Assembly: GCA_031265845.1 (NCBI GenBank)
Contig: JAISCC010000148.1
Location: 1 to 64,000 of the forward strand
Direction of reading: 5' to 3'
Origin: Treponema sp.
Lineage (GTDB): Bacteria > Spirochaetota > Spirochaetia > Treponematales > Breznakiellaceae
Length of the DNA: 64,000 bases
Below, in pieces: positions 18,014 to 55,210 of the stretch. The notes beneath the pieces were generated by a model. The model was not told the origin of the DNA. It searched no databases and worked only from the letters and a program-made list of their open reading frames with translations. The first letter of the stretch is position 1. Each line of letters begins with the position of its first letter. Position numbers and translations under genes: made by a program.

Positions 18014-18028
18014 GGGGGGGGGGGGGGG
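18014..18028 (-). repeat. 15-nt G (minus-strand C15) homopolymer, locus A
   Basis: Direct count: 7+8 G residues. Confidence 0.95.
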
Positions 18029-40567: not shown

Positions 40568-40582
40568 GGGGGGGGGGGGGGG
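40568..40582 (-). repeat. 15-nt G (minus-strand C15) homopolymer, locus B
   Basis: Direct count: 3+10+2 G residues. Confidence 0.95.
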
Positions 40583-53558: not shown

Positions 53559-55063
53559 TCATTTGACTTTTCCAAACCTATAGATCAAGTTTATGGATCC
53601 TTTGTGATTAACCCCTTTGAAATCTGTCCGCACTGAATAACTCACATCAATGGCGTTGATGAGCAAAAAGCCCGCGGCGGCATTAAAGGTGTGAGCCACC
53701 GCGCGATTGTCATAGTCGCCGAACCTGTAATCGGCTATCATGCAACCGTAACCAACTCCGATGTGGAACCCGAACTTGCTACCAAGTTCCCTATGGCTAT
53801 CATCGAAAGGTATAAACGCGCTTGCCCGTATATAGGGGTAGTATGAGTTATAGGACAAGTCTTTGATATAATCGGCGTTGCTAAGAAAGCCGAAGTCGCA
53901 ACCCAGATCAACATAGGCGGCAGCAACAATGGGTATAGTTATATTCGGGCTCAGGGTCAAACGCGGCGTTAGAAAAGTGGAGCCAAAAGCGGAGCCTATG
54001 CTCAAGCCCGCGCTCCAGTATGACAAAGGATAACCCTTCTTTAGTACATTCCCTATAGCCCGCTTAACATCCTCCCTTTTCCGCCGCGCCTCCTCCTTTT
54101 TCCGCGCCGCTTCCTTTGCCGCCGCCCGCTTTTCCACAGCCTTGTCTTGTCCGGTAAGTTTCAGCGCAAGCTCTTCCATTATTGCCAAGCCGTCCTCAAG
54201 GCTTTGATAATTAACCGAATCCCCGGCTTCCTGTATTCCGGTTTCAAGATTGACAACCGCCGCGTTGAACATGGCGCGGGCGCCCAGCCGCCGCGCCGTT
54301 ACAGACAGCGCGAGCCGCGGGTTGCCCGCCTTCCCTATAGCGGGCAGGTACTCGTCCGCCGTATCGCCGTTAAACTGATTGCCGTACTCTTCCAGCACCT
54401 GCTCAAGGCTCTTGGTGCGCGGATACACCGCGTATGCGCCGCTCTGTATCAGGTGTACCGCCAGTATCTGCGCCAGCGCGTCCGCCTCGCGGCTGTCCGC
54501 CCCTTCCGCCAGTTGCACCGGCGGAAGCGCGAGCAGGGGCAGTTTCGACGTGTCCTTCTTGACCGCCTCGGCGATGTTCCGCGCCATGGCGGGCAGCTTG
54601 CCGTCTATCTCCTCGATAGTCCGGTAGGTCTCGATGCCTCCGGCTATCTGCTGGAGGTTTTTCATGCGCAGTATGGCGATGATCAGCAGGTTCTGATCGC
54701 CTAGTGTGGTGATGGTTCCCGCGACCACGTAGTCCGCGCTGAGATGCTTTCCGAGCGCCGCGATGGTGTCAGGGTCGGTCATGCCGGACTCCATCTGGAA
54801 GCCCCGCTCGTTGCGTATGGCGCGGGTGATGCTGGTGCGCGGCACCGGGCTGAAAACGGCGGTCAGGTCTTTCTGAAAGGAGAAGAGTTCGGCGATGGTC
54901 TCTCCGTCTTCACCTTGGGCTCCGGTGAAGGGGAGGATGGCGAGCGTGTCTTTCGCCTGCGCGTTCGCGGCGGAGCTTAGAGCGAAAAGAAGGAGGAGGA
55001 GATTACAGAGAAACCGCCCCGTGCGGGGGGGGGGGGGGGCAAACCGGAAACTGTTTTATACAT
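53559..55063 (-). CDS. phase-variable candidate: exported CsgG/LpoB-like + C-terminal outer-membrane-type protein; frame interrupted at C15
   Basis: AAAGGAGG SD + ATG at 55063, 8 codons, C15 (55025-55039), then out of frame with TGRFLCNLLLLLFALSSAANAQAKDTLAILPFTGAQGEDGETIAELFSFQKDL...; caller ORF is 53559..54845. C-terminus ends ...GSINLIYRFGKVK. Confidence 0.8.
55025..55039 (-). repeat. 15-nt G (minus-strand C15) homopolymer within the 5' coding region, locus C
   Basis: Direct count: 6+9 G residues. Confidence 0.95.
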
Positions 55064-55181
55064 AAAAAGCCTCCTTTGGAGGGGTTGTTAAAATGCGCCT
55101 CGCTACGGAGGCGGCTTCTTTGCAGAAGCGGCGTTTCTGGAAGCTACACTGGAAGCTGCGCTTCTTTACGAAAGCGTTCAT

Positions 55182-55210
55182 AGCATAGCATAATTTGCCG
55201 CGTGTTTCAA
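55182..55210 (-). promoter_or_regulatory. sigma70-like promoter TTGAAA-N17-TATGCT upstream of the locus C C15 gene
   Basis: Minus strand TTGAAAcacgcggcaaattatgcTATGCT. Confidence 0.55.

Follow-up and report, generated by a model that had tools for sequence, protein, structure and literature searches.

A run of 15 cytosines lies just inside the start of a gene for a predicted exported protein in the 64,000-nucleotide stretch of Treponema sp. DNA analyzed here (the window), and as assembled it puts the start codon out of frame with the remainder of that gene. The question is whether the locus is a switch set by tract length, a gene silenced for good, a site of programmed slippage, or an error of the assembly.

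Reading frames at the C-tract

The locus comprises the following parts.

55182-55210, minus strand: predicted sigma-70-type promoter TTGAAA-N17-TATGCT, 147-119 nt 5′ of the ATG (sequence prediction)
55070-55077, minus strand: Shine-Dalgarno sequence AAAGGAGG, with a CTTTTT spacer to the ATG (from sequence)
55040-55063, minus strand: first eight codons, counting the start codon: ATG TAT AAA ACA GTT TCC GGT TTG
55025-55039, minus strand: proposed switch, a C15 homopolymer that is out of frame at 15 and in frame at 13, 16 or 19
54954-55025, minus strand: signal peptide RTGRFLCNLLLLLFALSSAANAQA, reached only in the n = 1 mod 3 frame
54156-54953, minus strand: two LpoB/CsgG/TolB-N-like alpha/beta domains (residues 25-290 of P0001, the frame downstream of the tract)
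53568-54020, minus strand: C-terminal 8-stranded outer-membrane beta-barrel (residues 336-486; from the structure model and Foldseek)
53559-55024, minus strand: intact ORF of the exported protein, from the tract to the stop codon

Read on the minus strand from 55077, the locus runs AAAGGAGG CTTTTT ATG TAT AAA ACA GTT TCC GGT TTG C15 GCACGGGGCGG, confirming a sequence-only reading that had placed a C15 eight codons into the gene, behind this ribosome-binding site (RBS) and ATG. The run occupies 55039-55025 and starts 24 nt into the ORF, after codon eight, and therefore covers codons 9-13. That reading had also claimed a stop about 28 codons into the ATG frame at 15 Cs, and entry into the signal peptide frame at 13 or 16 Cs; both claims were reproduced on recomputation: at n = 15 the frame encodes 28 residues (MYKTVSGLPPPPPARGGFSVISSSFFSL*), and at n = 13, 16 or 19 it passes via RTGRFLCNLLLLLFALSSAANAQA into an ORF of 500, 501 or 502 aa, respectively. 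At n = 14 and n = 17 the ATG frame ends at 19-20 residues. No in-frame ATG, GTG or TTG was found between the tract and the signal peptide, the next start being a GTG at 54845, beyond the signal peptide. A codon that reads ATG in the tract-less copy L033 is replaced by ACG, GTG or ATA in tract-bearing copies.

The window contains exactly three C/G runs of 15 (18014-18028, 40568-40582, and 55025-55039), with all its remaining C/G runs being 1-6 long and none 7-14. As a first-order Markov model predicts about 5e-5 runs of at least 15 per window, three such runs are not attributable to chance. The Shine-Dalgarno sequence is enclosed by a perfect palindrome, CCTCC-AAA-GGAGG (55070-55082; -6.4 kcal/mol alone), which is followed by CTTTTT and may modulate translation. 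In the related genome G002 (contig C48), a C10 run stands in place of the left palindrome arm.

The encoded protein

P0001 has a signal peptide, modeled as an N-terminal helix, and is matched by Pfam LpoB (3.7e-06; 27.3 bits, over the 22.3 cut-off), while the CsgG profile scores 20.0 bits, slightly under its 20.8 cut-off. The structure model (mean pLDDT 71) starts with the N-terminal helix, continues through two alpha/beta domains and a long helix, and ends in eight strands; its barrel part is weak (pLDDT about 40-60). Foldseek matched the barrel to the 8-strand outer-membrane barrels NspA, OmpA, OprF, OmpX, and Ail (E 7e-06 to 8e-04) and the N-terminal domains to LpoB, GNA1162, and TolB. Since the signal peptide, Pfam match, model and Foldseek matches agree, the earlier description of the product as an exported outer-membrane-type protein is well founded; its putative role is at the cell surface. 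Its N-terminal domains resemble the LpoB/CsgG/GNA1162 family both by Pfam LpoB and by fold; P0001 differs from that family in carrying the domain twice in succession, joined to an 8-strand barrel at the C terminus. About ten further members in the genome have the first ~300 residues in common with P0001, and most of these paralogs carry a different C-terminal module in place of the barrel. One paralog (G000:C78:2608-3555, L034) has a 5′ end, MAKETYWKVWLTPNRLTKDIENDFVAEVST, that by eye resembles the starts of HU/DUF4469 genes and is fused to a signal peptide, an apparent exchange of 5′ ends between families.

The same cassette in a paralog and in other species

Besides this locus, the cassette of promoter, RBS, ATG and tract is present in three intact copies, one in a paralog in the same genome and two in other species of the genus. 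The paralog (C78:4211-5686; 77% identical protein) has the same RBS and start with C14, out of frame. When the RBS-ATG region was used for a pattern search, three other species of the genus proved to have the cassette: in G002 (C48) with C16, out of frame; in G006 (C46) with C14, also out of frame; and in G003 (C222) without a tract and in frame, where the product past the signal peptide is a different protein. The neighbor of the tract-bearing paralog (C78:7410-8360) has an identical RBS and ATG, and is likewise tract-less and in frame. Thus the tract occupies a homologous position in three species at lengths of C15, C14, C16, and C14, all four assembled copies being out of frame (chance about 0.2) and both tract-less copies in frame. 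The first eight codons are kept in the C78 paralog and in G002. What the sequence-only reading had offered as inference, that the tract is used as a switch in this gene family, thereby gains comparative support, the cassette recurring in the paralog and two other species with tract lengths of 14, 15, and 16 overall and the two tract-less copies being in frame.

A TTGNAA-N17-TATNNT motif lies at -117 to -147 of the ATG in all seven copies with enough upstream sequence (four in this genome, including this locus, and three in other species). Because this conserved promoter, although a prediction only, lies upstream of the RBS and tract, the tract should be both transcribed and translated. Over 481 codons compared between this gene and the tract-bearing C78 paralog, both out of frame, there was no further disruption and dN/dS was 0.38, which argues against decay of the gene and shows an otherwise intact gene under purifying selection.

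Tracts across the genome and family

The genome is a fragmented 3.57 Mb draft of 171 contigs, a type of assembly in which exact homopolymer lengths are uncertain. It contains 179 C/G runs of at least 10, of which 112 are interior (no contig end within 150 bp) and sharply peaked at 15. Among the runs that were read, 89 measure 15, followed by 14 (35), 16 (17), and 13 (11), while lengths of 9-12 are very scarce. Runs of at least 10 number 37-179 in each of the 12 genomes of the genus, compared with 0-156 in other genera of the family and 0-15 in other families of the order; G047, the only 1.1 Mb genome searched, has 15 vs. the 179 here. By gene calls from a simple codon-usage script, which are approximate, 37 of the 112 interior tracts fall inside genes vs. 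about 82% expected, a depletion, and for 65 of the 75 intergenic tracts the gene that follows on the C side is encoded on the C strand (P about 5e-11).

Genes interrupted by tracts include those for a GH18 protein, UDP-galactopyranose mutase, an epimerase, a PRD/HTH regulator, a type ISP restriction enzyme and a caspase-like protein, among others. Three of these tracts share their position across species, with lengths of G15/G16/G15 in the mutase, G14/G15 in the epimerase and C15/C15 in the HTH regulator, and orthologues without a tract occur in other species. By the script, about 18 intragenic tracts are clear cases; roughly 7 of them keep the frame and 11 break it, a split close to the 1:2 that free switching would give. 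As the tract recurs in relatives and at more than 100 other sites in the genome, we consider the locus to sit within an unusually large phasome, that is, a large conserved set of putative on/off switches.

Flanks of the tracts in this genome have T at -2 in 54% of cases and T directly after the tract in 3%, after which Y, R and T are favored. Position-specific enrichment of a -10 signal beside tracts was weak genome-wide and occurred on both flanks. The minus-strand C15 at 40568-40582 of the window lies about 75-90 nt 5′ of the start of a gene that by resemblance is of an HU-like DNA-binding/DUF4469 type; among the 55 genes that lie downstream of intergenic tracts, 5 carry DUF4469, and a C15 at L099:520 has a similar upstream region.

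Alternative explanations

One alternative is that the C15 is unreal, or its length meaningless, as a product of sequencing or assembly. Within 150 bp of 57 of the 342 contig ends there is a C/G run of at least 10 (1.6 expected), several of these end-of-contig runs are plainly artefactual and some ends are degenerate poly-G or poly-C; two contigs (G000:C26 and G002:C204) break at the tract of this very cassette, and the assembled length is possibly off by at least one. Such breaks could reflect length heterogeneity, failure of poly-G sequencing, or both. Against an artefact, however, interior tracts join the two halves of single conserved genes (GH18, UDP-galactopyranose mutase, regulator), recur at like positions in other species, follow the gene strand in their orientation, and are absent altogether from some genomes of the same family (G020 and G033, with zero tracts), so that we regard this explanation as very improbable.

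Only slightly less remote is a permanently silenced paralog, left OFF by an expansion of its tract. It would account for all four assembled copies being out of frame and for the existence of intact in-frame paralogs, yet it is difficult to reconcile with the 481 undisrupted codons, their dN/dS, and the conservation of promoter, RBS and N-terminus across species. We hold it equally improbable that RNA polymerase or ribosomes slip on the C15 in a programmed manner, giving constant low expression from unchanged DNA. Long homopolymers can favor slippage during transcription, as CCC codons can favor frameshifting by ribosomes; the lengths C15, C14, C16, and C14, however, keep no single register, the lengths required differ among copies, and a conserved frameshift signal was not noticed.

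A conserved, length-variable tract ahead of a gene under selection is what is predicted of a contingency locus and not of a dead gene, and we conclude that this is probably a translational contingency (phase-variation) locus (probability roughly 0.8). Slipped-strand mispairing at replication would alter the tract by about one base. At n = 1 mod 3 (13, 16 or 19), ribosomes from the RBS and ATG would pass through the prolines into the signal peptide, yielding an exported protein of ~500 aa whose LpoB/CsgG-like domains would be periplasmic and whose barrel would lie in the outer membrane, whereas at other lengths translation would end within some 30 codons, without an exported product. The assembled C15 would then be the OFF state, and we infer that tract length changes in the living population and thereby switches expression. 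Loss of MutS as a cause of slippage was rejected, as MutS1 is present in the genome.

Relation to known systems

The closest counterparts of the proposed contingency locus are the translational contingency loci of Neisseria, Campylobacter and Helicobacter, in which, as here, a G/C tract lies early in a surface-protein gene and a change of one base in either direction flips the frame. In contrast to those loci, the present one belongs to a metagenomic Treponema-related spirochaete, not a described pathogen, its length variation is putative, and the tracts of this genome peak tightly at 15. Many such loci per genome are on record for N. meningitidis, with 115 varying genes (PMC5084427), and such tracts in coding genes have been proposed as a general mechanism (PMC2831843). 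In T. pallidum, the tpr genes, TP0126 and tprL have 7-11 Gs at the promoter, just 5′ of the transcription start, which alter transcription and for which phase variation has been proposed (PMC7864442). The analogy drawn earlier with tpr stands in part: in both cases a G/C homopolymer is tied to treponeme outer-membrane protein genes, but there it is a promoter tract, while here it is a run of C on the coding strand, inside the ORF, that alters the frame. A tpr-like promoter tract was not supported, the C15 being about 145 bp downstream of the conserved predicted promoter and 24 nt inside the ORF.

The nearest named relative, Treponema sp. MAG Cd354_bin125, we take to be a termite-gut metagenome bin, the host being our assumption. 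Our search of the literature, which was not exhaustive, found none on phase variation in termite-gut treponemes. The poly-G/C contingency mechanism is known; apparently new are the organism, the scale, and a possible variant with leader ORFs, and it is the size and conservation of the tract set that are surprising. Simple-sequence phase variation on a massive scale has been described chiefly in mucosal pathogens, where the usual explanation is immune evasion. More than 100 conserved switch-like tracts in probable insect-gut symbionts would call for another driver, for which phage predation, protist attachment and niche bet-hedging are candidates; the targets seen are outer-membrane proteins, chemotaxis receptors, a type ISP restriction enzyme, a chitinase and sugar regulators. 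A practical consequence is that automated annotation of such MAGs will miss or truncate switched genes.

Leader ORFs at intergenic tracts

Where an intergenic tract has a C-strand gene downstream (65 cases), a short ORF led by a strong RBS spans it on the C strand in 27 (a count that takes in this locus and its paralog), compared with 5 on the other strand and 15% at control positions. One register ends at most 20 nt from the next start codon in 11 of 24 testable leaders (2.8 expected from shuffles; partly non-independent, owing to the related leaders L088/L110/L214, L117/L153 and L150/L151/L220), and in 6 of the 24 one register fuses in frame with the next gene (1.6 expected). Conservation of the leader peptides was not found, substitutions being spread evenly over codon positions and indels not being multiples of three. 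It is conceivable, though on balance doubtful, that the genus has a very large phasome in which many seemingly intergenic C-tracts lie inside short strong-RBS leader ORFs and vary expression by translational coupling, with one of the three registers taking ribosomes up to the next gene's start codon, or fusing in frame with that gene. As the leader peptides are unconserved and several leaders are homologous, we treat this coupling as a lead and not as a result. To our knowledge, a switchable leader peptide with translational coupling is not a described class.

The minus-strand C15 at 18014-18028 of the window lies inside a short RBS-led leader ORF that begins at a GTG 15 codons ahead of the tract, and similar leaders (MNK/VNK...) precede the tracts at L097, L199, L103, and L110. 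In this genome the open register of leaders (L081-L220) often stops within -20 to +20 of the next start, with ATGA overlaps. The assembled length of leader and 5′-coding tracts is most often one base short of the open register, n+1 opening about 11 of 18, and the modal open length is 16 vs. a modal assembled length of 15; this one-base shortfall could reflect either mostly-OFF populations or an undercount of length.
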